From: Spirochaetota bacterium
Lineage (GTDB): Bacteria; Spirochaetota; Spirochaetia; Treponematales; UBA12059
Reading direction: 5' to 3'
Length of the DNA stretch: 60,542 bases
Assembly: GCA_018816345.1 (NCBI GenBank)
Contig: JAHIWG010000078.1
Location: 1 to 60,542 of the forward strand
The first letter of the stretch is position 1. Each line of letters starts with the position of its first letter. The translations under genes were made by a program, and so were the position numbers. Below the pieces are notes generated by a model. That model made no database searches. It had not been told where the DNA came from and worked only from the letters and a program-made list of their open reading frames with translations. Below are positions 40,336 to 60,007 of this stretch, in pieces.

Positions 40336-40364
40336 TTGACCCTAAGCCGTCGCTCATCTATGCT
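40336..40364 (+). promoter_or_regulatory. Promoter of the adenylate cyclase gene
   Basis: TTGACC (40336-40341), beginning directly after the ribonuclease stop codon, and TATGCT (40359-40364), with 17 bases between. Transcription should start near 40371, which is the first base of an in-frame GTG two codons before the ATG at 40377. The leader is therefore 0-6 bases. Confidence 0.65.
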
Positions 40365-40376
40365 AGCGTGGTGAGC

Positions 40377-42839
40377 ATGGAACAAAAAGATTATCGCCTC
40401 GCGGCGATCATGTACACCGACATAGTCGGGTTCTCTCGCATGATGGAACGGGACGAGGCGGGTACGCTCGACGTGCTCCGTTACCATAATACGCTGATCA
40501 CCGACATCGTGACGAAGCGGCACGGGACGGTCATCAAGACGATAGGCGACGCCTTCCTCGTCGACTTCCGCAATACCGTGGACGCGCTCCAATGCGCCAT
40601 GGAGATACAGGCGGCCGTCTACGAGCATAATAAGGAAGGCAAGGGACAGGCCCTCCTGCTGCGGATAGGCCTGCACCTCGGCGACATCTACTTCTTCGAG
40701 AACGACGCCCTCGGCGAGGGCATCAATATCGCCAGCCGCCTCCAGTCGTTCGCCAGGCCAGGCACCATCTGCTTCTCGCAGGACGTCTATAATCAGGTAC
40801 TCAATAAGCTCGACTTCAGGGCGGAGAAACTGGGCAAGGTCTCCCTCAAGAATATCACCAAGGAAATCCACGCCTACGAGGTCGCCAGCCCCAACGTCGA
40901 ATTCGACCCCGACCGCGACAAGCCGCGGCCCGGCTTCAAGCCGGCGGAGATAGACGACGCCGCCGCGACCGCGGCCCCGTTGCCGGGCACGCCCTCCCCC
41001 GCCCACCGCGGCTACGGCCCCGAGGCCGCGAAGGCCGTACTCGACGACATACGCAAGGCGATACTCGAGGATACCAAGACCATGGGGCGCCGCCTCACGG
41101 TGGCCGAGGCCCTCGAGCGCTACGGGGAATACGGCGTCGAGGCCAAGGAAGTCATCGCGTCGATGGCCGACAAGGGCCTCGTGCAGAAGACCGGGCCGTC
41201 CGGCGGCTCCTTGGCGCAGGGAGACCGGCCGTTCGGCCAGGCCTTCTCCGGCCCAGGCGGCGCCAAGGCGGGGGAAACGGATCTCGCCTCGGATATAGGC
41301 CGGGCCGTCGAGGGCATAGCCCGCGCTATAGAGCAGAGCGTCGGGGACTGGCAGAAAGCCGGCTCCCGAGGCAGGGGAAGCCGCCGCGGACGGGACTACG
41401 ACTCCCGCTACGAGGACGTCGGCGGCCGAGCCGAGCGCTCGATAGAGCGCGCCGCGGAGAAGCTCGAGCGTACCATAGACAGGATCTCCGGCGGTGACGA
41501 GAAGAGCGCCATCAAGGCGGAATTCCGCAGGCACCAGGCCGAGGTCGGGACGGGGAAGTGGGACGCAGAGCTCAGGAGCTCGGAGCACTTCAAGCCCGGC
41601 TCCGAGGAGATAGAGACCGATTTCGCGCGCTACCGCGACAAGCTAGAGGCGCGAGCCAGGAAGTCCAGCGCCGGTTTCATAGGCAACCTGCTATCGTTCG
41701 CCGGCGTCAACGCGCTCCTATGGTATATTAACCTGACCTTCGCCCCCGGGTTCACTTGGGCCGCCATCGTTACCGCGGCATGGGGGACGGGCCTCGTGAG
41801 CAACCTGTTCGCGACGGTACGCGGGAAGGCCAAGGCGTCGGAGGTAGATAAGATCCCGGAGCTAGCCCCAAGCGAGCTGGACGTCTACAAGAAGATCAAT
41901 AGGGTCCGGGACGGCATGGCCATGCATCTCGCCAGCGTCGTCTCCGTACCGCCGCTCCTCTTCACCATCAATCTCCTGACCTCCCCGGGATTCCTCTGGG
42001 CCGCCATACCGTCCGGCATCATGGCGCTGAGCTTCCTAGGCCACCTCGCTTCCTACCCGGGCACGCTCCGGGGACTCGAGAAGAAGCTATGGCGCCTGCT
42101 CGGCGTGGATTCGTGGCGGGAGCTGTTCAGGATAGGCGCGAACCGCAGGGCCGGGGCCTCGGCCGGGCAGTACGCGTCGGTCTACGCCGAGGTCGCGTCG
42201 ATCCGCGACCAGATCGTCAAGGACCTCAAGGCGGGCAAGGGCTCCGACGAGTTCGGCAAGGACATGATCCCGACCCTCGACCGCTACGTCGATCAAGTCA
42301 AGATGCTCTCGCACTCGGTCAACGAGATAGACGGCATCGTCTCGACCATACCCATGGACGCCTTGAGGCGCGACCGGGAAGAGCTGGAGGCGAAGCGCTC
42401 CGGCTCGACCAGCCAGGCCCTCAAGGACGAATACGGCCGTTCCATCGCCGAGATAGCGAGGCAGGAGAAGGCCTGCAAGGACCTGGAGGACCAGCGGGAG
42501 CTCCTGCGGCTAAGGCTCGGATCGTCCGCGAACGCCCTTAAGCAGCTCAAGATAGACATGGCCAGGATGAAGGCCCTGCCCGAGGCCGGCGAGCGCCAGG
42601 CCCTGGAGGACATACGGAAGAAGGCGAGCGAGCTTTCAGGGTACCTCGACGATCTCAAGACGGGCTACGACGAGACCTCGGCCGACCCGTACGCGGAACT
42701 CGAGCGGCTCGCCGCGGAAGCCGACGAGCGCGCGAGGCTGGAAGGCCGCCCGGCAGGCGTCGAAGGCTCCGGCGCCGAAGGCTCCGGCGCCGAGGGCTCC
42801 GGCGCCGAGGGCTCCGGCGGGAGGGGGGCCGGCCGTTGA
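40377..42839 (+). CDS. Class III adenylate cyclase with two 2TM modules and coiled coil
   Basis: Protein of 820 residues. The cyclase domain is N-terminal (about 1-180), which is unusual: metal-binding Asp15 in YTDIVGFSRMM and Asp58 in KTIGDAFLVDF, and the transition-state Asn/Arg in GEGINIASRLQ. Lys54 is consistent with ATP as substrate. A helical linker follows, then two hairpins of paired membrane helices resembling the 2TM domain (about 432-480, with WYINLTFAPGFTWAAIV, and 515-565, with TINLLTSPGFLWAAIPSG). A long coiled coil (about 600-780) ends in GSGAE repeats. The frame is open far upstream, but that is ribonuclease sequence in another frame. A GTG at 40371 is an alternative start. 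Confidence 0.88.
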   Translation: MEQKDYRLAAIMYTDIVGFSRMMERDEAGTLDVLRYHNTLITDIVTKRHGTVIKTIGDAFLVDFRNTVDALQCAMEIQAAVYEHNKEGKGQALLLRIGLHLGDIYFFENDALGEGINIASRLQSFARPGTICFSQDVYNQVLNKLDFRAEKLGKVSLKNITKEIHAYEVASPNVEFDPDRDKPRPGFKPAEIDDAAATAAPLPGTPSPAHRGYGPEAAKAVLDDIRKAILEDTKTMGRRLTVAEALERYGEYGVEAKEVIASMADKGLVQKTGPSGGSLAQGDRPFGQAFSGPGGAKAGETDLASDIGRAVEGIARAIEQSVGDWQKAGSRGRGSRRGRDYDSRYEDVGGRAERSIERAAEKLERTIDRISGGDEKSAIKAEFRRHQAEVGTGKWDAELRSSEHFKPGSEEIETDFARYRDKLEARARKSSAGFIGNLLSFAGVNALLWYINLTFAPGFTWAAIVTAAWGTGLVSNLFATVRGKAKASEVDKIPELAPSELDVYKKINRVRDGMAMHLASVVSVPPLLFTINLLTSPGFLWAAIPSGIMALSFLGHLASYPGTLRGLEKKLWRLLGVDSWRELFRIGANRRAGASAGQYASVYAEVASIRDQIVKDLKAGKGSDEFGKDMIPTLDRYVDQVKMLSHSVNEIDGIVSTIPMDALRRDREELEAKRSGSTSQALKDEYGRSIAEIARQEKACKDLEDQRELLRLRLGSSANALKQLKIDMARMKALPEAGERQALEDIRKKASELSGYLDDLKTGYDETSADPYAELERLAAEADERARLEGRPAGVEGSGAEGSGAEGSGAEGSGGRGAGR
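42765..42821 (+). repeat. 15-bp in-frame repeat at the 3' end of the cyclase gene
   Basis: Almost four copies of GGCTCCGGCGCCGAG (42765-42779, 42780-42794, 42795-42809, then partial) encode the GSGAE repeats at the extreme C terminus. Confidence 0.88.
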
Positions 42840-43026: not shown

Positions 43027-44349
43027 CTATTTGTTATAGTACAGATTCGGCAGCCACGTAGCGATTCCCGGGAAGACCATGATAATCGCCAGGCCGACGA
43101 TCATCAGGAGCACGAAGGGTACGACCGAGCGGTAGATGTCGCCCAGAGTAATCTCCTTGGGGGCCATGGCCTTCATGAGGAAGAGGTTATAGCCGAAAGG
43201 CGGCGTAAGGTACGCGATCTGGCAGGTTACGGTATAGAGGATACCGTACCATATGGGATCGAATCCCAGCTTGATGATGAGCGGGATATAGAGCGGCGCC
43301 ACGATTATCAGCATGGCCGTATCGTCGAGGAACATCCCCATGATGATGTACGACAGCTGCATCATTATGATGACGCCCCAGGGGCCGAAGCCGTTATTGA
43401 GGAACAGATCCCGTATGGCGTTCACGGCTCCGAGCCCGTCGAATATGGACCCGAACGCCAGGGCGGCGAGGATGACCCACATGAACATGCAGCTGACGCT
43501 CAGGGTATCGCGGAGGACCTCTCCCATGACCTTCTTGGTCAGGCGTCCCTTGAGCAGCGCGGCGATGGTAGTGACTACGGCGCCGACGGCCGAGCTCTCT
43601 ACCAGGTTCGTGATGCCCATGAAGAACAGGCCCGACATCATGAAGATGATGAACAACGGCAGCAGGCCCGCGCGGAGCAGCAGCAGCTTCTGCCCTAGCG
43701 GCATCGTGCGCTCCTCCTTGGGCAAGACGGGCCCGAGTTTCGGGTTGATGGCGCACCTGATTAGGATATAGGCGATGAAGAGGCCCGCCAGGAGGAATCC
43801 GGGCATGAAGCCGGCGAGCCAGAGCCTCCCGACGGGTTGCCTCGCTATCATGCCGTAGAGCACCAGCACGACGCTCGGCGGTATCATGATCCCGAGGGAG
43901 CTGCCGGCCTGGATGACCCCCGTCACCATCCTCTTGTCGTACTTCCTCTTGAGCATCTCGGGCAGCGCTATGCTCGAGCCGACCGCCATGCCGGCTACGC
44001 TCAGGCCGTTGATCGCCGACACCACGCACATGAGCAGTATCGTGCCGATCGCCAATCCCCCGGGGATCGGCCCGGTCCAGACGTGTATCATCTGGTACAG
44101 GTCGTCGGCTATGCCCGACTTGGCGAACATGTAGCCAATGTAGATGAAAATAGGCAGCGTAAGGAGCGGGTACCAGACGAGGAGCTTGAAGGCGGCCTGG
44201 AACGCCATGCCCACCCCTCCCACGCCCCATAGCATCACCGCGAATATGGACGCGACGCTGCCTATGACGGCGAAGATATGCCGGCCCGATAGCAGCATGA
44301 TGAGCATCGAGGAGAACATCATCAGCGCCATGAAGGAATAGCCGCTCAT
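43027..44349 (-). CDS. dctM: TRAP transporter large permease DctM
   Basis: 440 residues with about twelve membrane segments, the normal size for DctM. Family signs: the N-terminal membrane pair, INGLSVAGMAVGSSIALPEM, GSSLGIMIPPSVVLVLYG and PPFGYNLFLMKA near the end. GAGGAA precedes the ATG, which overlaps the dctQ stop (ATGA). It forms the Na+-driven importer with DctQ and DctP. Confidence 0.94.
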   Translation of the reverse strand: MSGYSFMALMMFSSMLIMLLSGRHIFAVIGSVASIFAVMLWGVGGVGMAFQAAFKLLVWYPLLTLPIFIYIGYMFAKSGIADDLYQMIHVWTGPIPGGLAIGTILLMCVVSAINGLSVAGMAVGSSIALPEMLKRKYDKRMVTGVIQAGSSLGIMIPPSVVLVLYGMIARQPVGRLWLAGFMPGFLLAGLFIAYILIRCAINPKLGPVLPKEERTMPLGQKLLLLRAGLLPLFIIFMMSGLFFMGITNLVESSAVGAVVTTIAALLKGRLTKKVMGEVLRDTLSVSCMFMWVILAALAFGSIFDGLGAVNAIRDLFLNNGFGPWGVIIMMQLSYIIMGMFLDDTAMLIIVAPLYIPLIIKLGFDPIWYGILYTVTCQIAYLTPPFGYNLFLMKAMAPKEITLGDIYRSVVPFVLLMIVGLAIIMVFPGIATWLPNLYYNK

Positions 44350-44873
44350 GATTTTTCCTCGATCCGCAGATTCTCGCCCTTGATATCGGCTACGTCCTTG
44401 ATCAGCTCCGATATGACCTGCAGGAACATGAGGAAGATGCCCGCTACCATGAAGATCTTTATCGGCGTCACCTGCGGAGCCCAGGCCGAGTAGGTGATCT
44501 GCTTATACTCGATGGCGTACTGGATGCCCTGTATCCCGCCCCATAGGAGGATTATCATATAGACGAGCAGGGGTACGAACGTGATGACGTCGGCGACGGC
44601 CTTCCCCTTCTTGGTCCACCTACTATAGAACAGGTCCATCCTGACGTGCCCGCCGACGAGCAGGGTGAATCCGCCGCCGAGCAGATAATAGGCGGCCATG
44701 AAGAACTGGGTCAGCTCCACGGCCCAGATATTAGGACGGCCGAAGACGGTCCTCATGATCGTATCGTATAGCAGTATCCCCATCATTATGAAAATCAAGA
44801 ACATCACGACCTTGCCGACTAGCCGGCTCGTCGCGTCTACGATGCGCACGTACGTTTTTGCCGCCCTTAGCAT
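44346..44873 (-). CDS. dctQ: TRAP transporter small permease DctQ
   Basis: 175 residues with four membrane helices. GRPNIWAVELTQFFMAAYYLLGGGF is the family signature region (split here as RPNIWAVELTQFFM). A GGAGGG ribosome-binding site precedes the ATG. Lies between the binding-protein and large-permease genes. Confidence 0.93.
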   Translation of the reverse strand: MLRAAKTYVRIVDATSRLVGKVVMFLIFIMMGILLYDTIMRTVFGRPNIWAVELTQFFMAAYYLLGGGFTLLVGGHVRMDLFYSRWTKKGKAVADVITFVPLLVYMIILLWGGIQGIQYAIEYKQITYSAWAPQVTPIKIFMVAGIFLMFLQVISELIKDVADIKGENLRIEEKS

Positions 44874-44908
44874 CGATCCCTCCTGGCAATTAGACAGGCT
44901 TTCCCAGA

Positions 44909-44946
44909 GCCCCCGTCCTACCGCCGGGGGGCGGCGGGACGGGGGC
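44909..44946 (-). terminator. Intercistronic hairpin between dctP and dctQ
   Basis: CCCCGTCC (44911-44918) pairs with GGGACGGGG (44937-44944, one mismatch or bulge) around an inner CCGCC/GGCGG stem. No T tract on the minus strand, so it more likely protects dctP mRNA or attenuates readthrough to the permeases. Confidence 0.45.
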
Positions 44947-44983
44947 GCGCATGGGAAATAGCTTTAGAACGTAGCGCCGCGGC

Positions 44984-46084
44984 CTAGTACCTGTACGGAG
45001 CCCCGGCCTTCTCCATGGTGTCGATATACTTCTTGAGGATGGCGACCACCTTGGCGTTCCTGGGGCTCTTCTTCGCGATCTCGTCCCAGTACTTGTACGC
45101 GGCCTCCTCGACTATCTTCCACTCCGAGTCGGGGATGGTCGTCAGCGTGAGCTTCCCGCCGTTCACGCGGTAGTTAGCCTCGCCGTACCAGTACCAGTGG
45201 AGCCTGAAGTAGTGGGACTTGTCTATCGCGAGCTTGAACAGCTGCTGCAGGTGCGGGGGCACCTTGGCCCAGGCGTCGGTGTTGACGAACCAGCCTCCGG
45301 ACCACGCTCCCGAGACAGGATTGGTTAAATAATATTTCGTTACGTCCGCCCATCCGACGGTATAGTCCTCGGTGATGCCGGACCAGGCCACGCCGTCGAG
45401 CATGCCGGTCTGTATGGCCATCTCCACGTCCTGGTACGGTAGCACGGTGGGCACCACGCCGAACTGCTGCATGAACTGCCCGCCCGTCGGGAACATGTAC
45501 ATCCTGAGTCCCTTAAGGTCGCTCAGGTGGTTGATCGGCTTGGTCGTGGCGAAGTTGCACGGATCCCAGCTTCCCTGGCTCAGCCAGGTGACGCCCTTGA
45601 TCTCGTCGTACGCCTCTTTCCATATCTCGTTAAGGCCGTACCAGTTCCAGAGCACGTTTACGTCGAGGCCGTACCTCGCCGCGAGCGGGAAGTAGGCCGC
45701 GAAGACGGAGACGTCGACCGGCGACGCCATCGAGTCGTCGTCGCTCACGACCGCGTCGATCGTGCCTTCCTGCAGCGCGCGGAACAGCTCGCCTTGCGGC
45801 ACGAGCTGGTCCGCCGTGTACACGTCGATGATCATCTCGCCGTTCGCGGCGATATTGAATTCGTCGATGGCGTTCTTCACGACGAAATCGTTAAGCGCAG
45901 GTCCGGCGTACGACTGCAGCCTCCACCTGATCACTTCCTTCTTGGCCTGCCCTTCCGCCGCGGGTCCCGCCTCCTTCGCGCCGCACGCGCCCGTCATAAG
46001 CGCGGCTCCGCCCACAATCGCCACCATGACCAGGAATTTATTTCGCTTCCTTTTAATGCCCACGGTTGATGCTCCGGCTTTCAT
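44984..46084 (-). CDS. dctP: TRAP transporter substrate-binding lipoprotein DctP
   Basis: Extracytoplasmic receptor of 366 residues. Basic start (KRKRNK), a hydrophobic segment and lipobox LMTGAC make it a lipoprotein. Family features: ADQLVPQGELFRALQEGTIDA, DLKGLRMYMFPTGGQFMQQF with the substrate-carboxylate Arg (GLRMY), and VLPYQDVEMAIQTGMLDGV. Such proteins mostly bind carboxylated compounds. The ATG at 46084 has AAGGAGG 4 bases upstream and is preferred to the upstream open frame starting at 46132. Divergent from the molybdenum hydroxylase operon. Confidence 0.93.
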   Translation of the reverse strand: MKAGASTVGIKRKRNKFLVMVAIVGGAALMTGACGAKEAGPAAEGQAKKEVIRWRLQSYAGPALNDFVVKNAIDEFNIAANGEMIIDVYTADQLVPQGELFRALQEGTIDAVVSDDDSMASPVDVSVFAAYFPLAARYGLDVNVLWNWYGLNEIWKEAYDEIKGVTWLSQGSWDPCNFATTKPINHLSDLKGLRMYMFPTGGQFMQQFGVVPTVLPYQDVEMAIQTGMLDGVAWSGITEDYTVGWADVTKYYLTNPVSGAWSGGWFVNTDAWAKVPPHLQQLFKLAIDKSHYFRLHWYWYGEANYRVNGGKLTLTTIPDSEWKIVEEAAYKYWDEIAKKSPRNAKVVAILKKYIDTMEKAGAPYRY

Positions 46085-46114
46085 AAAGCCTCCTTGTGGT
46101 GTGAATAGAACTCC

Positions 46115-46132
46115 GTGCAGGCGTGCCTGCAC
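46115..46132. promoter_or_regulatory. 18-bp perfect palindrome, likely operator of the TRAP operon
   Basis: GTGCAGGC-GT-GCCTGCAC at 46115-46132. Its right edge falls on the predicted transcription start of dctP (about 46132), so a bound regulator would block initiation. No regulator gene lies next to it in the window. Confidence 0.6.
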
Positions 46133-46441: not shown

Positions 46442-47011
46442 ATGCCAAACAAGGAAAACGGGGTTACGCGTGGCGTCAGGGAACCGGCAGTCGCGGGCTC
46501 GGATCAGCCCCGCGAGATCCGGATCCGGGTGAACGGCTCGTGGCGTAGTTTCAGGCTCGAATCCGACCTGAGCCCCGCCACGACGCTTTCGTACGTCCTC
46601 AGGGAGAAGCTCGGCTTCACCGGGCTGAAGGTGTCTTGCGACGAGGGAGCCTGCGGGGCCTGTACCGTGATCCAGGACGGCAAGGCCGTCCTCTCGTGCA
46701 TGGTGCTCGCGGTCGAGGCCGACGGGCGCGACGTCACCACGATCGAGGGCCTCCCCGCCGACGACCCGGTCGTCCAGGCCTTCGCCGAGCAATCGGAGCC
46801 CGGCTACGGAACGGCCATGCAGTGCGGCTACTGCACGCCCGGGTTCGTCATGACCGCGAGGGCCCTGCTTAACGACAACCCGTCCCCGACGCTATCCGAG
46901 ATAAAGGACGCGCTGGCGGGCAACATCTGCCGCTGCGGCTGCTACGCCGGGATCGCCCAGGCCGTCCTGCGCGCGTCCGCCAAGATCGCGGCCGGAAGGA
47001 GCGCGTCATGA
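46442..47011 (+). CDS. Molybdenum hydroxylase, [2Fe-2S] small subunit
   Basis: 189 residues with two [2Fe-2S] clusters. The N-terminal plant-type ferredoxin domain has CDEGACGACTV and a distal Cys (SCMVLAVEADG); the C-terminal helical domain has CGYCTPG and ICRCGCY. It passes electrons from the Mo centre to the flavin subunit. An N-terminal extension of about 22 residues precedes the usual start. AAGGA lies 6 bases before the ATG. The stop overlaps the next gene by 4 bases. Confidence 0.94.
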   Translation: MPNKENGVTRGVREPAVAGSDQPREIRIRVNGSWRSFRLESDLSPATTLSYVLREKLGFTGLKVSCDEGACGACTVIQDGKAVLSCMVLAVEADGRDVTTIEGLPADDPVVQAFAEQSEPGYGTAMQCGYCTPGFVMTARALLNDNPSPTLSEIKDALAGNICRCGCYAGIAQAVLRASAKIAAGRSAS

Positions 47012-49365
47012 GCCAAGCGTATAAGCCGCGGGTACCCCGCAAATTCGTAGGCGGCTATAGGCCGAAGATCGACGGCCCGGACAAGGCCAGCGGAAGGGCG
47101 CTGTACGCGGACGACATGACCATCAAGTCCCGCTTCCCGGACATGCTGTACGCCAAGATACTCCGCAGCCCCTATCCTAACGCCAGGATAAGGAAATTCG
47201 ACCTAAGCAAAGCCGAGGCCCTTCCCGGCGTCGTCTCGATAATGACCTACGAGGACCCCGAGTTCAAGTCGCTCAAGCTGACGAACGCCGGCTGGACCGA
47301 CTGCGTCGATACGGTGAGCTGGGACCGCATGATGTTCCAGTTCCGCGACCGGCGCGTGCTGGGCGAGTACGCGTGCTGGGTCGGCGACGAGATGGGAATA
47401 GCCGTGGCCGCCGAGACCGAGGAGATCGCGGACGAGGCGCTGGGCCTCATCGACATAGACTGGGAGACTTCGCCGTTCGTGCTCGACCCTCTCGAGGCGA
47501 TGAAGAAGGGCGCGCCGCTGGTGCACCCCGACATCCAGGAGACGAACGTCCTGGCGCCGGACCCGACGGGCGGCCCCGACGTGTTCGAGGATCGGGGCGA
47601 CGTCGAGGAGGATTTCAAGCGGGCCGAATTCGTCGTCGAAGGCGAATCGGTATTCCACAACGCCACGCAGGGCTCCATGGACAACTGGTGCTGCCTCATG
47701 CAGTGGAAGGCGGACCAGCTGACGGTCTGGTCGAACCATTACGCGGCGGACCAGCTACGCATGCACATAAAGGAGATGCTCGGGTTGCCCCTCCACAAGA
47801 TACGCGCAATAGCGTCGTACGTCGGGGGACAGTTCGGGCGCGGCGACACGGGCGACCAGCCGTTCTTCCTCGTAACGAGCCTGCTGGCGATGAGGACCGG
47901 CAGGCCGGTCAAGTACCGTCATACCAGGCACCAGAGCTTCCTCAACACCAGGCAGCCGGCAATCTACACCTTCAAGGCCGGGGCGAAGAGGGACGGGACG
48001 ATCACGTCGCTGCACTTCAAGTCGATAGGCAACGTCGGCGCCTACGCCGACCTGTCGATGTTCGCGCTCAAGTTCGTTCCCAAGGAACTGGCCGAGGTAT
48101 TCATGGCCCACATCCCCAACCTACGGATGGAATCGTACGGCGTCTACACGAACGTCATCCCCGGCTGCATGATGCGCGGCGTGGGGAACTCGCAGTTCAA
48201 CCTGGTCTTCGCGCACGTCATGGACGCCGTAGCCGAGAGGCTGGGCATGGATCCCATCGACCTATGCATCAAGAACTTCGCGCACGAGTGGGAGAAGCTA
48301 CCGAGCGAGAGCCTCGTAGCGGTGCTGAACGAGGGCGCCGAGCGTCTCGGATGGAAGGACAAGCGGCACCTGCCGGGCAAGGGCAGGGCCTACGACGGCG
48401 TCAAGAGGCGCGGCGTCGGGTTCTCGTGCCATCCCTCTTGGCACGCCGAGTGGCAGGAGAAGCGCCGAGGCAAGGTGCAGGTCAACCTTACGCTCAACCC
48501 GGATTGCACGGTACTGCTCAACGCGGCGACCATAGAGGTCGGCGGCGGCTCGAACACCTGCAACGTCCTCGGCTGCGCGGAGGCGCTGGGCTTCCTCGGT
48601 ATAGGAGTGGAGGATATACACTGGACCAGCATCACCGATACCAACGACGGCATCAAGGATTGCGTCCAGACGGACAGCGCCGTTTCGTTCCTCCAGGCCG
48701 AGGTCATGATCGATTCGGCGAAGGAGCTCAAGCTGAGGCTCAGGGAAGCCGGCGCCGAGATCCTGAACGTCAAGGCCTCCGACATCGACATCGTCGAGGG
48801 AGAGGTAATAGTCGCGTCGCGGCCCGACCTGAGGATGACGGTGAAGCAGATGCTCCATAAGGGGGACAACGCGCCCATCACCGTGGCCAAGAGCCGATCG
48901 CCCGACGTCGCCCTGACTGGCGTCCCCTTTTTCGCCAACTTCGCCGAGGTCGAGGTAGACACGAGCACGGGCAAGGTCGACGTACTGAGGCTCGTCGTGG
49001 TCAACGACTGCGGCACCGTGATGTACGCCTCCGGCGCGGAGTCCCAGCAGATAGGCGGGCAGTGCATGGGCATGGGCGAGGCCCTCACCGAGGAGATAAT
49101 CTACGACAAGGCGACGGGCATACCGCTTAACTTCAACTGGGTAGACTACACCATCCCGACCATGGCCGACATGCCTGACATCGACCCCGTGCTGCTCGAG
49201 GTATGGAAGGGCACCGGAGAGTACGGGGCCTGCGGCATCGGCGAAGGCACGGTGTCGTGCACGCCGGGGGCGATCCTCAACGCGATATACAACGCCATAG
49301 GGGTAAGGGTGAACGATATTCCGATCAAGCCGGAGAAGATTCTCAAAGCCCTGGGAAAGGACTGA
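47008..49365 (+). CDS. Molybdenum hydroxylase, molybdopterin-binding catalytic subunit
   Basis: 785 residues, xanthine dehydrogenase/CO dehydrogenase large-subunit family. GRALYADDM and LYAKILRSPYPNARI begin the N-terminal domain; SYVGGQFGRGD binds the cofactor; TIEVGGGSNTCN and NDCGTVMYASGAESQQIGGQ are further cofactor motifs. The catalytic Glu is in ACGIGEGTV near residue 745. The cofactor site lacks the AYRG[AP]G-type active loop of CO dehydrogenase, so substrates such as purines or N-heterocycles are more likely. Whether it needs selenium cannot be told here. Confidence 0.92.
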   Translation: MSQAYKPRVPRKFVGGYRPKIDGPDKASGRALYADDMTIKSRFPDMLYAKILRSPYPNARIRKFDLSKAEALPGVVSIMTYEDPEFKSLKLTNAGWTDCVDTVSWDRMMFQFRDRRVLGEYACWVGDEMGIAVAAETEEIADEALGLIDIDWETSPFVLDPLEAMKKGAPLVHPDIQETNVLAPDPTGGPDVFEDRGDVEEDFKRAEFVVEGESVFHNATQGSMDNWCCLMQWKADQLTVWSNHYAADQLRMHIKEMLGLPLHKIRAIASYVGGQFGRGDTGDQPFFLVTSLLAMRTGRPVKYRHTRHQSFLNTRQPAIYTFKAGAKRDGTITSLHFKSIGNVGAYADLSMFALKFVPKELAEVFMAHIPNLRMESYGVYTNVIPGCMMRGVGNSQFNLVFAHVMDAVAERLGMDPIDLCIKNFAHEWEKLPSESLVAVLNEGAERLGWKDKRHLPGKGRAYDGVKRRGVGFSCHPSWHAEWQEKRRGKVQVNLTLNPDCTVLLNAATIEVGGGSNTCNVLGCAEALGFLGIGVEDIHWTSITDTNDGIKDCVQTDSAVSFLQAEVMIDSAKELKLRLREAGAEILNVKASDIDIVEGEVIVASRPDLRMTVKQMLHKGDNAPITVAKSRSPDVALTGVPFFANFAEVEVDTSTGKVDVLRLVVVNDCGTVMYASGAESQQIGGQCMGMGEALTEEIIYDKATGIPLNFNWVDYTIPTMADMPDIDPVLLEVWKGTGEYGACGIGEGTVSCTPGAILNAIYNAIGVRVNDIPIKPEKILKALGKD

Positions 49366-49375
49366 GGGTACAACC

Positions 49376-51766
49376 ATGGGAATGCGAAAATTCGAACACG
49401 TATCGGCTACGTCGCTCGGCGACGCGGTCACGAAGCTCGGCGAATACCGCAAGGGGGCCGTAGCGGTAGCGGGCGGCACCGACATACTAGGAGTGCTCAA
49501 GGACGAAGTGCATCCCGTATACCCTCGGGTGCTCGTCGACCTCAAGGGCATCGGGGGTCTCGACTTCATCCGCGAGGAAAAAGGCGGGATCAAGATAGGC
49601 GCCCTTACCACCCTCTCCGCGATAGCGAGGAGCGACGTCGTCAGGAAGTCCGTACCCCTGCTCGCCGACGCCGCGCACGCCGTCGCGTCCCCCCAGCTCC
49701 GGAACATGGGCACGCTGGGAGGCAACATCTGCCAGGAGCCGCGATGCTGGTACTACCGCGGCTACGACAACGTCTTCCATTGCCTCCGCAAGGGCGGCGA
49801 CAAGTGCCCCGCGCTGACCGGCGAGAACAGGTTCCATTCGATCTTCGGGTCGATGCGCGTAGGCGCGCCCGGATGCTCCTCGGGCTGTCCCGACAGTATA
49901 GACATACCGCGCTACATGGAGAGGATACGCGAGGGAAGGATCGAGGAGGCGGGGCGCATCATCCTGGAGAACAACCCGATGCCGGCCGTAACGGGCCGCG
50001 TCTGCCCGCACTTCTGCGAGCAGGGATGCAACCGTACCGACCAGGACAGCGCGGTATCGATCAGGGCGGTCGAGAGGCGGGTCGGCGACTATATACTCGA
50101 GAACGCCGGGAAGTACAAGAACCCGCCGGCCGCGGAGAACGGCAAGAAAGTAGCGATAGTAGGCGGAGGGCCGGCCGGCCTCTCCTGCGCGTACTACCTC
50201 AGGCGGCGAGGCTTCGGGGTCGTCGTATACGATAAGCAGCCGAAGCTCGGCGGCATGCTGCGCTACGGCATCCCGGATTTCCGCCTATCACAGGGCGTCC
50301 TCGACAGGGAGCTGGATTTCCTCCTGTCGACGGGCATAGTCGCCAAGACCGGGCAACGGCTCGGCAAGGACTTCACGCTCGACGGACTCAGGAAAGAAGG
50401 CTTCGACGCCGTCTTCCTCGCCATGGGCTCATGGGTCGCCAAGGGCATGGGCATCGAGAACGAGAGCCATGCGAGCGTCGTACCGGGCATATCGTTCCTC
50501 GAAGGCGTGAAGTGGAACGGCCCGCCCGCCCTCTCCGGCGTGGTCGCCGTGGTCGGCGGCGGCAACACCGCCATCGACGCGGCCAGGACGGCGCTCCGCT
50601 GCGGCGCGAAGAAGGTCGTGCTGCTGTACCGCCGGACGAGGCCCGAGATGCCGGCCGAGGACGAGGAGATAGAAGACGCCATAAAGGAAGGCGTCGAGCT
50701 GCAGTTCCTGGTCGCCCCGAAGAAAGCGGTACTCGACGGAAAGAACCTCGTCGGCCTCGAATGCGCGAAGATGAGGCTTGGCGAGGCCGACGCGTCGGGC
50801 AGGCCGCGGCCGGTCGAGATCAAGGGCAGCGATTTCCTGTTCAAGGCCGACTGGGTCATATCCGCCATAGGCCAGGACCAGAGCCTGCTGGGCCTCGATA
50901 ACGCCTCGTACGGCGCCATCAAGCTTACCAAGGGCAACGGCATCGAAGCGGACGAGGAAACCTTCCAGACCAGCGTGACAGGCGTGTTCGCCGGCGGCGA
51001 CGTCGTGACGGGACCGGCGACGGCTGTCGAGGCCCTGGCGGCCGGCAGGAAATCGGCGAGGTCCATCGCCGCCTACCTTACCGGCGATAGGCCTGAGCCG
51101 TCCGGCGTCGACGCGGCGAGGGAAGCGCTCAGGGGGATCAACGCCGAGGCGCTCAAGGCATCCGAGAGGGTCGGCGTCAAGGAGGTCGCGCCTTCGAGCC
51201 GATGCCTCGACGCCGAGGACTACGCGACGCTGGACGACGGCAAGGTGGGCATCGAGGCCCATCGCTGCCTCGACTGCAGCTGCGTAGCGGTCAACGCCTC
51301 TGACGTCGCGCCCGCCCTCGTCGCCCTCGGGGCCAGCGTAAAGACTACGAAGCGGACGATAGCCGCGGAGGACTTCTACACCGTCGGCGTCATGGCGACT
51401 ACGGTACTGGAGATGGACGAACTGGTGACGGAGATATTCGTACCGGCGCCGAAGCCGGGAACCAGGTTCAGTTTCCAGAAGTTCAGGATACGCAACTCCA
51501 TCGACTTCCCGATAGTAAGCGTCGCGTCCGCCCTGACCTTCGACGGCGCGACGATCAAGGACGCCAGGATAGTGTTCGGAGCCGTCGCCCCCATTCCGCT
51601 TCGAGCGGTGAACGTGGAGGAAGCCCTCGTCGGCAAGGCGGCCAGCGAGGAGACCGCGGAGGCGGCGGGAGCGGTAGCGGCCAGGCAGGTATTCCCGCTG
51701 GAGCATAACCGCTACAAGGTCCAGATACTGAAAGGACTCCTAAGGAAGGCTATCCTGGCTCCCTAG
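49376..51766 (+). CDS. FAD subunit with an inserted GltD/YgfK-like NAD(P)H oxidoreductase
   Basis: 796 residues. Residues 1-158 are the N-terminal part of a CoxM-type FAD subunit (VAVAGGTDILG; MGTLGGNICQEPRCWYYRG; then CLRKGGDKC and HSIFG). At that point a GltD-like module of about 470 residues is inserted: an Fe-S helical domain (CSSGCPDSIDIPRY, CPHFCEQGCNR), a first nucleotide site VAIVGGGPAGLSCAYYLRR, a second VAVVGGGNTAIDAARTA, and GVFAGGDVVTGPATAVEA. From about 634 the FAD subunit resumes with CVAVNASDVAPALVALGA and runs to the end. This joins the functions of separate E. coli proteins YgfM and YgfK. Probably feeds electrons between the Mo hydroxylase and NADPH. Confidence 0.9.
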   Translation: MGMRKFEHVSATSLGDAVTKLGEYRKGAVAVAGGTDILGVLKDEVHPVYPRVLVDLKGIGGLDFIREEKGGIKIGALTTLSAIARSDVVRKSVPLLADAAHAVASPQLRNMGTLGGNICQEPRCWYYRGYDNVFHCLRKGGDKCPALTGENRFHSIFGSMRVGAPGCSSGCPDSIDIPRYMERIREGRIEEAGRIILENNPMPAVTGRVCPHFCEQGCNRTDQDSAVSIRAVERRVGDYILENAGKYKNPPAAENGKKVAIVGGGPAGLSCAYYLRRRGFGVVVYDKQPKLGGMLRYGIPDFRLSQGVLDRELDFLLSTGIVAKTGQRLGKDFTLDGLRKEGFDAVFLAMGSWVAKGMGIENESHASVVPGISFLEGVKWNGPPALSGVVAVVGGGNTAIDAARTALRCGAKKVVLLYRRTRPEMPAEDEEIEDAIKEGVELQFLVAPKKAVLDGKNLVGLECAKMRLGEADASGRPRPVEIKGSDFLFKADWVISAIGQDQSLLGLDNASYGAIKLTKGNGIEADEETFQTSVTGVFAGGDVVTGPATAVEALAAGRKSARSIAAYLTGDRPEPSGVDAAREALRGINAEALKASERVGVKEVAPSSRCLDAEDYATLDDGKVGIEAHRCLDCSCVAVNASDVAPALVALGASVKTTKRTIAAEDFYTVGVMATTVLEMDELVTEIFVPAPKPGTRFSFQKFRIRNSIDFPIVSVASALTFDGATIKDARIVFGAVAPIPLRAVNVEEALVGKAASEETAEAAGAVAARQVFPLEHNRYKVQILKGLLRKAILAP

Positions 51767-54903: not shown

Positions 54904-55280
54904 ACGCGCTGGAAGTATTAGCGAAGATCAACCCGGTCGCCGCCTCGGGGGCGGTCCTCGTGCTCGTGGGGCTTTGGGGAGTCATGGCCAAGCCCAACCT
55001 GTTCAAGATAGCGGTAGCCTTCTCGGTCATGGAGACGGGCGTCAACCTAGTCATCCTATCGGTCGGCTATATACGCGGCCGCACCGCCCCGATCCTCGAT
55101 TCGGCGGCCGACGCCGCCTCAGCGTCGGCCAGGATGACCGACCCGGTCCCCCAGGCGCTGGTGCTGACGGCCATAGTCATAGGCCTGGCCGTGACGGCCC
55201 TGATGCTCAGCTACGCCGTGCGCCTCAAGGCCGGCGGCGGCGGCTCGTCGATAGAATCATACGGAGAGGAAAAATGGTAA
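54900..55280 (+). CDS. mrpC: MrpC/NuoK-like subunit
   Basis: 126 residues with three membrane helices. LVGLWGVMAKPNLFKIAVAF, SVMETGVNL and VPQALVLTAIVIGLAVTAL are the MrpC/NuoK signatures. A loop rich in Ala and Ser (SAADAASASAR) separates helices two and three. Overlaps neighbours by 4 and 7 bases. Confidence 0.9.
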   Translation: MNALEVLAKINPVAASGAVLVLVGLWGVMAKPNLFKIAVAFSVMETGVNLVILSVGYIRGRTAPILDSAADAASASARMTDPVPQALVLTAIVIGLAVTALMLSYAVRLKAGGGGSSIESYGEEKW

Positions 55281-58200
55281 ACCCGCTCTACCTATTCGCC
55301 GCGTCGCTCGCGGCGGCCTTCCTGCTGCCTCTCGTCGACAAGCTGGGACGGCGCGTATCGCTGGCCCTCGTCTACGCGACGATCGCCGCGTGGGGCGCCG
55401 TCGCGCTATCGTACCTATGGGCACTGCTGTACGCGGGCGTCGGCGCGCGGGCTTTCGGCACCGCCGGGTTCGTCGCCCCGCTGGCCATCATGCTGCGCGT
55501 GGGCCCGGAGGAGGCCGCGGGCCTCCTTGCGATTTCGGGCGTCGGCCTCCTGGCGGCGGGCGCGATGCGCCGGCCGCTGGCCGAGGCGCCGATAGGCGGA
55601 GCGATGACCCTCATTACGGCGCTGATGGGCATGTCGGGCATCGTGCTGACGAGGGACCTCTTCAACCTATTCGTCTTCCTCGAGATAGCCTCTATCTCGA
55701 CCTACGGCCTCATCGCCTTCGACGACAGGCGAGGCGCCCTGCGAGCGGGCTTCAAGTACATGATAGCCGGCGGCATCGCGAGCGCCCTCTACCTCATCGG
55801 CGTCATCTACGTATACCGCTTCTCGGGCCACCTGAACCTCGACATGGCGGCGGCGGCGCCGGGGTTATTCGGCGGCGCCGGGACGATAGCCGTATTCTTC
55901 CTCCTGGCCGCCCTCCTCGTGGAGCTCAAGCCCTTCCCAGCCAACGGATGGGCCATCGACGCCTATCAGACGGCCGATCCCGGCGTCTCGGCCATCCTGT
56001 CGGGCGCGTCGGCGACGGCGCTGCTCCTGGCGCTCTGGAAGGTGATGCCGCTCCTGGGCGAGGCCCACCTGGCCGCGGTCGCCGGCTCGGGCCTAGCGAC
56101 CTTCGCGGCCGGGAACCTGGCCGGCGCAAGGCAGGGGCGAGCAAGGCGCATGCTCGGCTATTCGTCCGTCGCCCAGGTCGGCCTCGTCGCCGCCGTCGCG
56201 GCCCTGGACCGCCTGCTCGGGCTCGGAGGCCTCCGCTTCACGTACCTGGTCGCCGGCGGCCTCCTCCTCAACCACCTGCTGGCTAAGACGGGCCTCTTCC
56301 TGCTATCCAGCGCCATAGGCGACGACGAGGCGGCGCGCGGCGGCGCGGCGGGAAAACGCGGCGAGGGAGCGCTCTCGCCCTTCGGCGCGGTCGTCGCCGG
56401 AGTCCTGGCGGCGGCGCTCGTCGGGCTACCGCCCTTCCCCGGCTTCTGGGCCAAGTGGACGCTTATCCAGGCCCTGGCCGGGCGCGAGTCGTGGTGGCTG
56501 ATAGCGCTCATACTGGGGGCGAGCCTCGTGGAGGCGTTCTACGTGCTCCGCTGGCTCATCGCCATCGTCAAGGGCGAGGCCGGCGCGCTCGCGAAGGGAG
56601 AACGGGGAACGATCGAGCCTGGCGCGCCGATTCCGGCCCGTATCAGGCTCGGCGCCGGCGCGCTGGCCCCGGCGCTCGCGGCCGCGGCCCTCGTCGTCTC
56701 GGGCGTCATGCTCGGCTGGAACCTGTCCGTGAGCGACCCGCTCCTATGGGCGCCCTTCGCGGCGGCGGCGATCCTCTTCGCCATCGACCGCGCGCCGGGC
56801 TGGCTCAAGTCGCTGCTATCCATCGCGGCCGCGGCGGCTTTCGGGTGGCTAGCCTACGACAGGCTCGACGGCCTACGGCAACTGTTCGCCATCATGCTCC
56901 TGGGCGGCGGAGCCATGTACTCCTTCGCGGCCATGTACAAAGGCGGCGCGAGGAGGGGACTGCACCCGCTGTTATCCGCGGCAACCCTGGCCCTGGGCTC
57001 GGTCCTCGTCGCCGAGACGCCGCTAGGCTTCTTCTTCGCCTGGGAGACGATGACCCTGGCGAGCTTCCTCCTCGTCCTGCGCGGACGGGAGAGCCGGGCC
57101 GCGGCGCTTAGCTATATTGTCTTCGGGCTAGGGGGCGCCTTCCTCCTCATGGTCGGCCTCGTGGCGATCCCGGGCGCCTGGTCGTCAGGATCGACGGGGT
57201 CCGCCGGCGCGGGCTGGCCCGTTTTCCTGATACTCGCGGGGCTCCTCGTCAAGCTCGGCGCCCTGGGCGCGCACGTCTGGCTACCGGGGGCCTACGCGGA
57301 GTCGGACGACGAGGCCTCGGGCTTCCTATCGTCGTCGCTTTCCAAGGCGGGCGTATTCGTCATGGTCGTAGCGCTAGCCGCCTTCGGCCGCGTCCTGCCC
57401 TTCCAGGCTACGTCCATGAGGATACTCGGCTGGATAGGGCTCGCGACGGCCCTCTTCGGCGCTCTGTACGCGATCTACCAGGAGGACATCAAGAAGACCC
57501 TGGCATGGTCGTCGATGGGCCAGATAGGCTACGTGATCCTGGCTCTGGCCATATACGACCAGGCCGGCTGGACGACGGCGCTATACCTTGCTTTAAACCA
57601 TTTCCTCTATAAGAGCATGCTTTTCCTCGCGATAGCCGGCGTGATACAGCGCGTCGGCACGCGCAACATGTACGAGATGGGCGGCCTCATAAAGAAGATG
57701 CCGTTCTCCTTCCTGTCCGTGCTGATGGCCATCATCGCGCTGTCGGGCGTACCTCCGCTATCGGGCTTCGGGGGCAAGTGGCTCCTGTACTCGTCGCTCC
57801 TAGAGAAGGGCTGGTACATCGAGGCGGCCGTCGCGTTCTTCGCGAGCGCCGTCGCGTTCCTGTACCTGTTCAGGCTCATACATACCATCTTCCTAGGCCA
57901 GCCGAAGCCCTCCCAGGCGATGGTGCGGGAGGCGCCGCTGGCCCTGACGATACCGCAGGGGCTCTTGATGGTCGTCCTCTTCGCGGTCTCGGCCTTTCCG
58001 CGGCTGATGCTCGACCCCATCATGAGGGTAGTAGGAGAGGCGTTCGATCCAGTGCTGCGCTTCGAGGGATCCGCGCTCGTCTCCCCGCTAGGCTACTGGG
58101 ACGGGACGCTATCGATGATAGTAACCATAGCGGTCTTCGCGTTGTGCTTCCTCTGGATGATCGCGAACCTCCACAACCCGCAGACCGTCAAGCAGTTCAA

Positions 58201-58453
58201 CATCGTATACGCCGCCGAGAGGCCCTTCAGGCCCGAGACGACCCACTACGCGTGGAACTTCTACGCGCCCTACGAGAAGGCGCTCGGCTTCCTGACGCGC
58301 CATAGGGGCGAGCGCTTCTGGGCGGCCGTAGGCACGGGCGTCGATGCCGTAGGCGGCGCGATAAGGCGCGTGTATACGGGCAACGGGCAGACCTACGCCC
58401 TACACGTCGTCCTGTACGTCGTGGCGCTCTATCTCCTCATGGGGGCCCTCTGA
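55274..58453 (+). CDS. Double MrpD/NuoN-type antiporter-like subunit (two modules fused)
   Basis: 1059 residues, about twice a single MrpD. Module one (about 1-445): TRDLFNLFVFLEIASISTYG with the pump Glu, FKYMIAGGIASALYL with the TM7 Lys, and LKPFPANGWAIDAYQTADPG. Module two (about 475-930): LGFFFAWETMTLASFLLVLR with its Glu, KLGALGAHVWLPGAYAESDD with its Lys, and KTLAWSSMGQIGYVILALA; at the TM7 Lys position it has Ser (AALSYIVFG). A C-terminal extension of about 120 residues follows with two more helices. The two modules correspond to MbsH and MbsH'. The ATG at 55274 has GGAGAGGA upstream; the open frame before it is shadow sequence. Confidence 0.9.
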   Translation: MVNPLYLFAASLAAAFLLPLVDKLGRRVSLALVYATIAAWGAVALSYLWALLYAGVGARAFGTAGFVAPLAIMLRVGPEEAAGLLAISGVGLLAAGAMRRPLAEAPIGGAMTLITALMGMSGIVLTRDLFNLFVFLEIASISTYGLIAFDDRRGALRAGFKYMIAGGIASALYLIGVIYVYRFSGHLNLDMAAAAPGLFGGAGTIAVFFLLAALLVELKPFPANGWAIDAYQTADPGVSAILSGASATALLLALWKVMPLLGEAHLAAVAGSGLATFAAGNLAGARQGRARRMLGYSSVAQVGLVAAVAALDRLLGLGGLRFTYLVAGGLLLNHLLAKTGLFLLSSAIGDDEAARGGAAGKRGEGALSPFGAVVAGVLAAALVGLPPFPGFWAKWTLIQALAGRESWWLIALILGASLVEAFYVLRWLIAIVKGEAGALAKGERGTIEPGAPIPARIRLGAGALAPALAAAALVVSGVMLGWNLSVSDPLLWAPFAAAAILFAIDRAPGWLKSLLSIAAAAAFGWLAYDRLDGLRQLFAIMLLGGGAMYSFAAMYKGGARRGLHPLLSAATLALGSVLVAETPLGFFFAWETMTLASFLLVLRGRESRAAALSYIVFGLGGAFLLMVGLVAIPGAWSSGSTGSAGAGWPVFLILAGLLVKLGALGAHVWLPGAYAESDDEASGFLSSSLSKAGVFVMVVALAAFGRVLPFQATSMRILGWIGLATALFGALYAIYQEDIKKTLAWSSMGQIGYVILALAIYDQAGWTTALYLALNHFLYKSMLFLAIAGVIQRVGTRNMYEMGGLIKKMPFSFLSVLMAIIALSGVPPLSGFGGKWLLYSSLLEKGWYIEAAVAFFASAVAFLYLFRLIHTIFLGQPKPSQAMVREAPLALTIPQGLLMVVLFAVSAFPRLMLDPIMRVVGEAFDPVLRFEGSALVSPLGYWDGTLSMIVTIAVFALCFLWMIANLHNPQTVKQFNIVYAAERPFRPETTHYAWNFYAPYEKALGFLTRHRGERFWAAVGTGVDAVGGAIRRVYTGNGQTYALHVVLYVVALYLLMGAL

Positions 58454-59367
58454 TGGAACCGACACTACTAGGGCGCATAGGCTACGCCTTCGTCTCGCTC
58501 TTCGTGATAACTAACTACGGCCTCCTGCTCATCGGTTCCATGGCGCGGATAAGCGCCAAGGTCCAGGGCCGCGTCGGCCAGCCCGTCTGGCAGCCGTACA
58601 TAGACATCATCAAGAGCTCCGCCAAGCGCAACGCGATCGGCCACGGCGTGATGTTCTACCTGGGGCCGGTCTTCAGGCTAGCGGGCGGCATAGGCACCTA
58701 CATGTTCATACCGGCGGTGTTCGGCTCGGTCGTGTTCAGGAATTTCTCCGACTCCGGCGACCTGCTCCTGGTGATGTACTTCATCTTCTTCGGGCAGCTG
58801 GGCATGGCCCTGGGCGCCGGCGAGGGAGGCCACCCGTACAGCGCCATAGGCGTCAGCCGGGGCCTGGCGCAGATGACAGCCTTCGAGGTGCCGTTCGCGC
58901 TGTCGGTCATAGCCGTCGCCGTCCAGTACGGCACGCTCGACATCAACGCCATAGTCGCGGCCCAGCAGGGCGGCTTCGCTCGCTGGACGCTGGCGACCAA
59001 CCCGCTCGCGGTCGTGGCCGCGATCATCGCGTTCCTGGGCATGTCGGGGCACAATCCGTTCAGCGTCGTCATAGCGCCCCAGGAGATCCCCATAGGCCCG
59101 CCTACGGAGTACCAGAGCAACCTCCTGGGCATGCTCCAGACCAACAGGGCTATCTTCAACGGCGCCAAGCTGGTGCTGTACATGAACCTGTTCTTCGGCG
59201 GGGCCACGAACATAGTCGCGATGGTGATCAAGACCTTCCTTATCTACTTCGTCAACGTGTTCGTCGGGCAGGCCTTCCCACGGTTCCGGACCGACCAGTC
59301 GATCCGGTTCTTCCTCGGCGTGCCGACGCTCATCGGCATCGCCTCGGTCATCATAGCGGTCATCTAG
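58453..59367 (+). CDS. NuoH-like membrane subunit (Mbh/Mbs M type)
   Basis: 304 residues, about eight membrane helices. It links the membrane arm to the catalytic arm and lies on the proton or quinone path in complex I relatives. Visible signs: RISAKVQGRVGQPVWQPYID, a complex I NuoH signature form; GVSRGLAQMTAFEVPFALSV; and the acidic loop PQEIPIGPPTEYQSN. The start ATG shares one base with the previous stop. Its place directly before the NuoB-like gene follows the mbx/mbs order. Confidence 0.9.
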   Translation: MEPTLLGRIGYAFVSLFVITNYGLLLIGSMARISAKVQGRVGQPVWQPYIDIIKSSAKRNAIGHGVMFYLGPVFRLAGGIGTYMFIPAVFGSVVFRNFSDSGDLLLVMYFIFFGQLGMALGAGEGGHPYSAIGVSRGLAQMTAFEVPFALSVIAVAVQYGTLDINAIVAAQQGGFARWTLATNPLAVVAAIIAFLGMSGHNPFSVVIAPQEIPIGPPTEYQSNLLGMLQTNRAIFNGAKLVLYMNLFFGGATNIVAMVIKTFLIYFVNVFVGQAFPRFRTDQSIRFFLGVPTLIGIASVIIAVI

Positions 59368-59377
59368 GAGGCGCGGC

Positions 59378-60007
59378 ATGAGCGACAAGAGACTGAAACC
59401 GGCGCCCCTGGCCAACGAGGGACTGCCGCCCGAGGAGCGGGGCCTGTTCTGCGACGCCGCCCCGAGGGAATACGAGCCCGCACGGGGAGCCTGGGAGAAT
59501 TTCCTCAATTGGGCGCGCTCCGAGAGCCTCTGGCTCCTGGGCTTCGGCACCGGCTGCGGCGCGATAGAGCTGCGGCCCCTCATGACCAGCCGCTTCGACA
59601 TGTACCGCTACGGCATACAGCCGAGGCCGACGCCCCGGCAGTCGTCGGTTTTCGTGATAGGAGGCTACGCCTCGGTCAAGACGCTCAAGCGCATCGTCCG
59701 CAGCTACGAGCAGATGATGGGCCCGAAATTCGTGGTCGCGCTCGGCTCTTGCACCATCAACGGGGGCATGTACTGGGACAGCTATAACACGATTAAGCGC
59801 ATCGACCAGTACATCCCGGTCGACGTGTACATAGCCGGCTGCATGCCGCGGCCCGAGGCCCTGCTCGCCGGCTTCCAGGAGCTCAAGAGGATAATCAAGG
59901 CCGGCGACGGCGAGGGGCAGAACGAGTACGCCCGCAACTTCGACTGGTACAAGGCTAACCAGAAGAAGGTCATCAAGGACTGGAACATGCCCGACTACAA
60001 CTGGTAG
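59378..60007 (+). CDS. NuoB-like [4Fe-4S] subunit (J type) with altered cysteine pattern
   Basis: 209 residues. GFGTGCGAIELRPLMTSRFD, VVALGSCTINGGMYW and VDVYIAGCMPRPEALLAGF are the three cluster-binding regions, giving Cys60, Cys125 and Cys155. NuoB has a tandem Cys-Cys at the first site; here the second is Gly61. Cys25 in GLFCDAAP is the only other nearby Cys. It should carry the last cluster before the active site. AGGAGG lies before the ATG. Confidence 0.9.
   Translation: MSDKRLKPAPLANEGLPPEERGLFCDAAPREYEPARGAWENFLNWARSESLWLLGFGTGCGAIELRPLMTSRFDMYRYGIQPRPTPRQSSVFVIGGYASVKTLKRIVRSYEQMMGPKFVVALGSCTINGGMYWDSYNTIKRIDQYIPVDVYIAGCMPRPEALLAGFQELKRIIKAGDGEGQNEYARNFDWYKANQKKVIKDWNMPDYNW

Follow-up and report, generated by a model that had tools for sequence, protein, structure and literature searches.

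The nested gene and its neighbours

The window analysed here, a stretch of 60,542 nucleotides from a Spirochaetota genome (contig JAHIWG010000078.1), contains at positions 49376-51766 of the plus strand an uninterrupted reading frame encoding a protein of 796 amino acids. The Pfam domains assigned along its length are FAD_binding_5 (residues 5-120), Fer4_20 (164-243), Pyr_redox_2 (257-557) and CO_deh_flav_C (700-794), and the protein was confirmed as a FAD subunit of the xanthine oxidase family (residues 1-158 and 636-796) split by a complete GltD/NfnB/StnC-type module (residues 159-635). The N-terminal half of the host subunit (49376..49849, containing FAD_binding_5) aligns continuously to 5y6q_B and 1rm6_B and bears the FAD-binding motifs AGGTD and MGTLGGN as well as C124, C136 and C144, the first three cysteines of an HcrB-type loop. 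The inserted module (49850..51280; Fer4_20 and Pyr_redox_2 with Rossmann motifs for FAD and NAD(P), PRK12771, 9bov_A) is predicted to hold two [4Fe-4S] clusters, an FAD and an NADP(H) site. Within it lie the Fe-S ligands C167, C171, C210, C214, C218 and E233 (49874..50074) and, at residues 418-420 (50627..50635), a YRR motif of NADP(H) type that is also found in the NADPH-binding StnC. The sequence C631-x-x-C634-x-C636 (51266..51283) spans the second junction, and the C-terminal half of the host, with CO_deh_flav_C and the stop codon, occupies 51281..51766, its fold being matched as far as residue 796. All these features are on the plus strand.

A first-pass annotation of this DNA had placed the break in the FAD subunit at HSIFG (residue 158) and its resumption at CVAVNASD (residue 634). 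Both motifs are as written and the break stands, although the exact residue of resumption is C636 rather than 634. The same annotation took the two ends to be adjacent in ordinary members of the family; ordinary relatives have at the insertion site only a short linker of a few residues, from 'HAILGGGPC' to 'HSIFGGSVEKGCVAVHPSD'. When residues 159-635 are removed in silico, the remainder forms one continuous chain in alignment with 5y6q_B (query 23-319, E 1e-40) and also aligns continuously to HcrB, 1rm6_B (12-288, E 3e-35). Alignments to these FAD subunits score higher without the insert than with it. Discontinuity of the two FAD halves, named at the outset as something that would speak against nesting, was thus checked and the halves were found to align as one chain.

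Structure prediction gives the same picture. The AlphaFold model of the 796-residue protein, calculated for the protein without cofactors, has a mean pLDDT of 91 and a pTM of 0.86 (59 sequences) and contains both folds intact. In VIA-align comparisons the host fold matched 5y6q_B over residues 3..796 (Z 37.8, 2.0 Å, 314 aligned) and 1rm6_B over residues 1..796 (Z 35.0), FAD_binding_5 and CO_deh_flav_C together forming one fold. The NfnB-like fold was matched across residues 159..670, the insert superimposing on NfnABC-NfnA (9bov_A) with Z 48.8 and 2.4 Å for 461 aligned residues and on StnC (8oh5_C) with Z 47.0. A second model, again of protein alone, for the homologue at locus L053 (around 44% identical; pLDDT 86) likewise has both folds intact. 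Fold model, chain continuity and recurrence in other genomes (see below) all bear out the original suggestion of a true domain insertion.

The nested gene lies directly 3' of genes, also on the plus strand, for the [2Fe-2S] subunit of a Mo hydroxylase (46442..47011; Fer2, Fer2_2) and for its molybdenum-binding subunit (47008..49365; MoCoBD_1, MoCoBD_2, Ald_Xan_dh_C), and these partner genes adjoin it in nearly all nested loci. The best solved relative of the Mo subunit is 1rm6_A, the alpha subunit of 4-hydroxybenzoyl-CoA reductase (E 1.7e-70; next match 1.5e-46). Its residues around 215-285 (ATQGSMDNWCC, GGQFGRGD) appear to us unusual for the family at what are presumably active-site positions, and may hint at an unusual substrate. 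Divergent from this set, on the minus strand, are the genes of a TRAP transporter identified through Pfam (43027..46132; DctM 43027-44349, DctQ 44346-44873, DctP 44984-46132). Several other loci, too, have TRAP genes next to the nested gene set, their order and strand varying; loci L033, L034, L035 and L047 have ABC-type transporter and solute-binding genes in the corresponding position, and L118 has an Opp-type set a few genes away. The TRAP transporter is likely to be a substrate importer, and the Mo enzyme likely acts on the imported compound. In Desulfobacula-type loci, genes for XdhC, MoCF_biosynth and MobA-like proteins are found alongside. No catabolic pathway was seen among the neighbours, which comprise transporter, solute-binding, Mo-cofactor maturation and apparently unrelated genes, so that gene context names no substrate. 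The Rosetta-stone arrangement, in which the module would be encoded separately next to a FAD subunit of ordinary type, was encountered neither in 39 ordinary FAD loci nor in 14 loci with free-standing modules, a sample that thus lends the proposed wiring no support of this kind.

Two further regions of the window may be mentioned. On the plus strand at 54974-60007, a frame of 1159 amino acids with two Proton_antipo_M stretches is followed by NuoH-like and NuoB-like genes; these may belong to an Mrp/Mbh-type membrane complex, truncated where the window ends, in which two antiporter modules are fused. At 39762-42839, also on the plus strand, a long frame encodes an adenylate/guanylate cyclase domain together with a 2TM region and, C-terminally, a repeat of GSGAE type.

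Relatives and cluster ligands

Sequence searches matched the module to 9bov_A (E 8e-124) and to the PRK12771 family, and StnC/NfnABC-NfnA are closer to it than YgfK and GltD are. The equivalence to E. coli YgfK that was proposed initially has accordingly been given up. YgfK (TIGR03315) is only the fourth-ranked NCBIfam family for the nested protein, scoring 345 bits against a curated cutoff of 835, which is not reached, and matching profile positions 447-901 only. Furthermore, YgfK has a catalytic site of its own with FMN (PMC12507026), a site that the insert lacks. The score and the missing FMN part together rule out YgfK as the closest relative. A looser parallel exists, in that E. coli XdhD-YgfM and YgfK also bring a Mo hydroxylase, a FAD subunit and a GltD-containing protein into one pathway, that of reductive urate degradation (PMC12507026). 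There, however, the proteins are separate, YgfK reduces the next intermediate and the sequences are more distant.

StnC and NfnABC-NfnA (8oh5, 9bov, 9n5u), the closest solved relatives of the insert, resemble it in the combination of NAD(P)H, FAD, two [4Fe-4S] clusters, a GltD-like domain and a C-terminal RCxxC motif, but there the module is fused linearly with NuoG/FdhF-like Fe-S domains, as part of bifurcating transhydrogenases. NfnB (NfnL) of NfnAB, GltD and DPD share the GltD-like fold with two [4Fe-4S] clusters and differ in having the RCLxC pair N-terminally; in addition, NfnB bifurcates with its NfnA partner and DPD includes a fused pyrimidine reductase. As regards the host, HcrABC of Thauera aromatica (1rm6) is alike in its three subunits, in having the Mo subunit closest by sequence and in the four-cysteine [4Fe-4S] loop, whereas the loop of HcrB is short and contains no NAD(P)H module. 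None of the three models for 4-hydroxybenzoyl-CoA reductase reached its cutoff (TIGR03194, 367 against 995 bits; TIGR03195, 163.5 against 405; TIGR03193, 138 against 258). The electron donor of that reductase is ferredoxin (PMC12771579). Urolithin C dehydroxylase (Ucdh) is another xanthine-oxidase-family reductive dehydroxylase near 4-hydroxybenzoyl-CoA reductase (4-HBCR), to which it is closest; it is anaerobic, employs NADH as reductive donor and has a putative transporter in its cluster, but an ordinary FAD subunit (UcdhA) is described for it and no nested module is reported (PMC12771579).

The insertion point falls exactly between the third and fourth cysteines of the [4Fe-4S] loop of 4-hydroxybenzoyl-CoA-reductase type, with C124, C136, C144 and C636 aligning to the four loop cysteines of 1rm6_B. 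In HcrB-type FAD subunits such as 1rm6 this loop holds an extra [4Fe-4S] cluster. These four residues are invariant in all 26 nested homologues compared (down to 43% identity), as are C167, C171, C210, C214, C218, C631, C634 and E233 of the insert. The latter, seven cysteines and one glutamate, provide the eight ligands required by two [4Fe-4S] clusters, and the complete invariant set, 11 Cys and one Glu, amounts to 12 ligands, exactly enough for three. C119 is also invariant but, since 5y6q_B lacks it, was left out of this count. The last ligand of the insert, C634, and the last of the host, C636, are only two residues apart. The earlier expectation of two flavins and several Fe-S clusters in one chain is thus matched by two predicted flavins and three predicted [4Fe-4S] clusters.

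Ligands may be allotted to individual clusters by homology, in part with the DPD structure. The proximal cluster of the insert would be bound by C171, C210, C214 and E233, the distal cluster by C167, C218, C631 and C634, and the HcrB-type cluster of the host by C124, C136, C144 and C636. E233 sits at the place of K170 in StnC and, by homology, would be the counterpart of the glutamate ligand of NfnB, the ligands of the StnC and NfnB clusters being as given in PMC10482914.

The position of one cysteine pair separates the related families. True GltD proteins, for example that at locus L004 of the window's own genome, have EAxRCLxC directly N-terminal of the first Fer4_20 cysteines. In free-standing relatives of PRK12771 type the N-terminal motif is absent; EAxRCxxC occurs instead close to the C-terminal end, with a ferredoxin domain after it. 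A C-terminal location of the motif is shared by the nested proteins, but in these the ferredoxin domain is gone and the fourth host cysteine follows (RCLDC-S-C636). Judging from this pattern, C631 and C634 would complete the distal cluster of the insert, and the cluster of the host would have replaced the ferredoxin domain of the free-standing relatives. Such positioning of the motif next to the fourth host cysteine would explain why both ends of the module meet in one loop, and a host cluster in place of the ferredoxin domain would mean that no diffusible ferredoxin is needed.

Proposed electron path and direction

The separation of C634 and C636 by only two residues makes an electron wire between insert and host likely. 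We consider it probable that the NAD(P)H module is wired, via the clusters of the insert and the [4Fe-4S] cluster and FAD of the host, to the molybdenum of a three-subunit Mo enzyme. In such a path NADPH, or NADH in subtypes lacking YRR, would reduce the FAD of the insert, from which single electrons would pass to the proximal, then the distal and then the host [4Fe-4S] cluster, and onward through the host FAD and the pair of [2Fe-2S] clusters in the small subunit to Mo. The proposal joins two known routes. In 4-hydroxybenzoyl-CoA reductase (1rm6), electrons proceed from the [4Fe-4S] cluster and FAD of HcrB through [2Fe-2S] clusters to Mo. In StnABC, NADPH is oxidised by the GltD domain of StnC at an FAD described as non-bifurcating, and electrons leave via the [4Fe-4S] clusters C7 and C6 (PMC10482914); according to a review (PMC8097209), GltD-like domains as a class use such clusters to supply a partner with electrons from NAD(P)H. 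The direct path from NADPH to Mo suggested in the first-pass annotation is therefore plausible in the light of ligand conservation and of the StnC and HcrB precedents.

The nucleotide used may vary. Comparison of the segment corresponding to residues 415-427 revealed YRR at the NADP(H) site in proteins of the Spirochaetota type and in L048, L049 and L051, CLES, CLEC or CLER in Desulfobacula, L047 and L052-L055, and CLEA in L046. This suggests an NADP(H)-type site where YRR is present and an NAD(H)-type site in proteins with the CLES-type motif.

The same wiring could run either way: NAD(P)H could drive the reductive dehydroxylation of a substrate taken up by the cell, or the enzyme could hydroxylate with NAD(P)+ as acceptor. 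The Mo subunit and the loop are closest to those of 4-hydroxybenzoyl-CoA reductase, and for this reason we lean towards the reductive direction. The loop itself does not fix the direction, since oxidative aldehyde oxidoreductases, as represented by the matches to PaoB and 5y6q_B, have it too. An enzyme in which Mo hydroxylates the imported substrate and electrons exit through the insert to NADP+ or NAD+ is a real, if somewhat doubtful, alternative: it would have the usual direction of most xanthine-oxidase-family enzymes and the company of those aldehyde oxidoreductases. Against it may be set the closeness of the Mo subunit to the reductive HcrA and the reductive use of NADH by the anaerobic Ucdh, near 4-HBCR (PMC12771579), neither point being decisive.

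Other destinations for the electrons were also considered. The insert might serve to reduce free ferredoxin or flavodoxin, with the Mo enzyme merely tethered to it, as NfnB can pass electrons to ferredoxin and GltD-like domains have varied partners (PMC10482914, PMC8097209). We think this unlikely, given that the nested proteins have a ligand of the host cluster at the point where free-standing relatives continue into their ferredoxin domain, and that the invariant C634-x-C636 favours direct transfer. More improbable still is flavin-based bifurcation of the NfnB kind, also raised in the first-pass annotation, in which the insert FAD would split the electron pair of NADPH between the Mo substrate at high potential and ferredoxin at low potential. 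The NfnB-type Glu (E233) and R303 are invariant in all 26 nested homologues, R303 corresponding in sequence to the NfnB Arg that contacts FAD N5, and StnC differs at the Glu place (Lys170). Both features are, however, common among GltD-like proteins, and E233 and R303 alone are not diagnostic of a bifurcating NfnB. StnC has the same Arg, yet its FAD is described as non-bifurcating (PMC10482914), and in the nested sequence a single chain of clusters leads away from the FAD of the insert. Inspection of the neighbourhoods of the nested gene sets revealed no recognisable gene for an NfnA-like [2Fe-2S]/FAD partner. With StnC, reported as non-bifurcating, among the closest solved modules and no second exit recognised in the gene set, bifurcation is very improbable, and direct transfer from NAD(P)H through the host cluster to Mo is the reading we prefer.

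Distribution and apparent exchange of the nested module

Four further genomes from the group contain full-length colinear homologues, with identities of 86, 84, 76 and 74%. A scan of around 85,000 species genomes by junction alignment yielded 27 loci, which appear to include these four genomes, with a FAD half and the insert in one frame; 25 are full length and two are cut by contig ends. Separately, the nested gene was found in 8 of 393 Spirochaetota genomes, five of them outside the 27 scan loci and one of these five a finished, single-contig complete genome. The total outside the window's genome, answering the suggestion in the first-pass annotation that other nested fusions be sought, is 32 nested loci, 30 of which are full length. 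They span Spirochaetota, Desulfobacterota, Myxococcota, Actinomycetota and Chloroflexota, the carriers being named as Spirochaetes, Desulfobacula, other Desulfobacterales, Myxococcales, Acidimicrobiaceae, Dehalococcoidia, 'Proteobacteria' and 'Bacteroidales', although names of metagenome-assembled genomes may be imprecise. One homologue (L032:6811-9216) has a short run of N within the insert, appearing as X in alignments.

Most nested sequences come from metagenome assemblies, which might lead one to suspect an assembly or annotation artefact fusing two genes. The probability of this is negligible, however: an identical junction is present in one frame in the 27 scan loci and again in the finished single-contig genome, and the N-terminal half of the host has a dN/dS of approximately 0.1-0.16 and the insert one of approximately 0.1, values indicating that both parts are under purifying selection. 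Independent assemblies, the finished genome and dN/dS together rule out a frameshift or assembly error, the other circumstance that had been foreseen as fatal to the nesting.

The nested subunit serves at least three groups of Mo subunit, those of the window, of L051 and of L052-L055, the latter two types being only around 30% identical to the window Mo subunit. Between L048:6358-8724 and L051:7686-10052 the inserts are 93% identical and the host halves 54%, with a sharp rise in identity at the position of window residue 159 and a drop after 660. The module has apparently been exchanged as a cassette between these two different Mo operons. Tentatively, and with some doubt as to its generality, one may picture an exchangeable NAD(P)H-input cassette that fits into the [4Fe-4S] loop of HcrB-type subunits, swapped between operons by recombination, serving at least three different Mo enzymes and giving rise to self-contained, ferredoxin-free, NAD(P)H-driven reductive Mo hydroxylases.

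Linear fusions of GltD modules are common and both halves of the nested protein are of known kinds, but we know of no described GltD module nested in the FAD subunit of a Mo hydroxylase, and no published description of the nested architecture was found in the open-access literature. It is a clear instance in which two ligands of one metal cluster are separated by a large catalytic domain. To our knowledge, the source or sink of the low-potential electrons of anaerobic molybdenum hydroxylases is often unknown, the ferredoxin of 4-hydroxybenzoyl-CoA reductase being diffusible; a pyridine-nucleotide module wired into the cluster loop points to an electron path that can be tested and to a natural donor or acceptor, and possibly offers a template for NAD(P)H-driven Mo dehydroxylases.

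In the insert tree, 12 outgroups give one nested clade; with more outgroups two changes are needed, a single clade not being rejected (p-AU 0.196). In the host tree the nested set includes three subunits of ordinary type, L058, L060 and L061, a pattern compatible with loss of the insert as well as with a second gain. These three FAD subunits (L058:937-1941, L060:6016-6996, L061:7683-8663) lack the insert and have a longer linker, for example GGSVEKG, which may represent either insert loss or the ancestral state.
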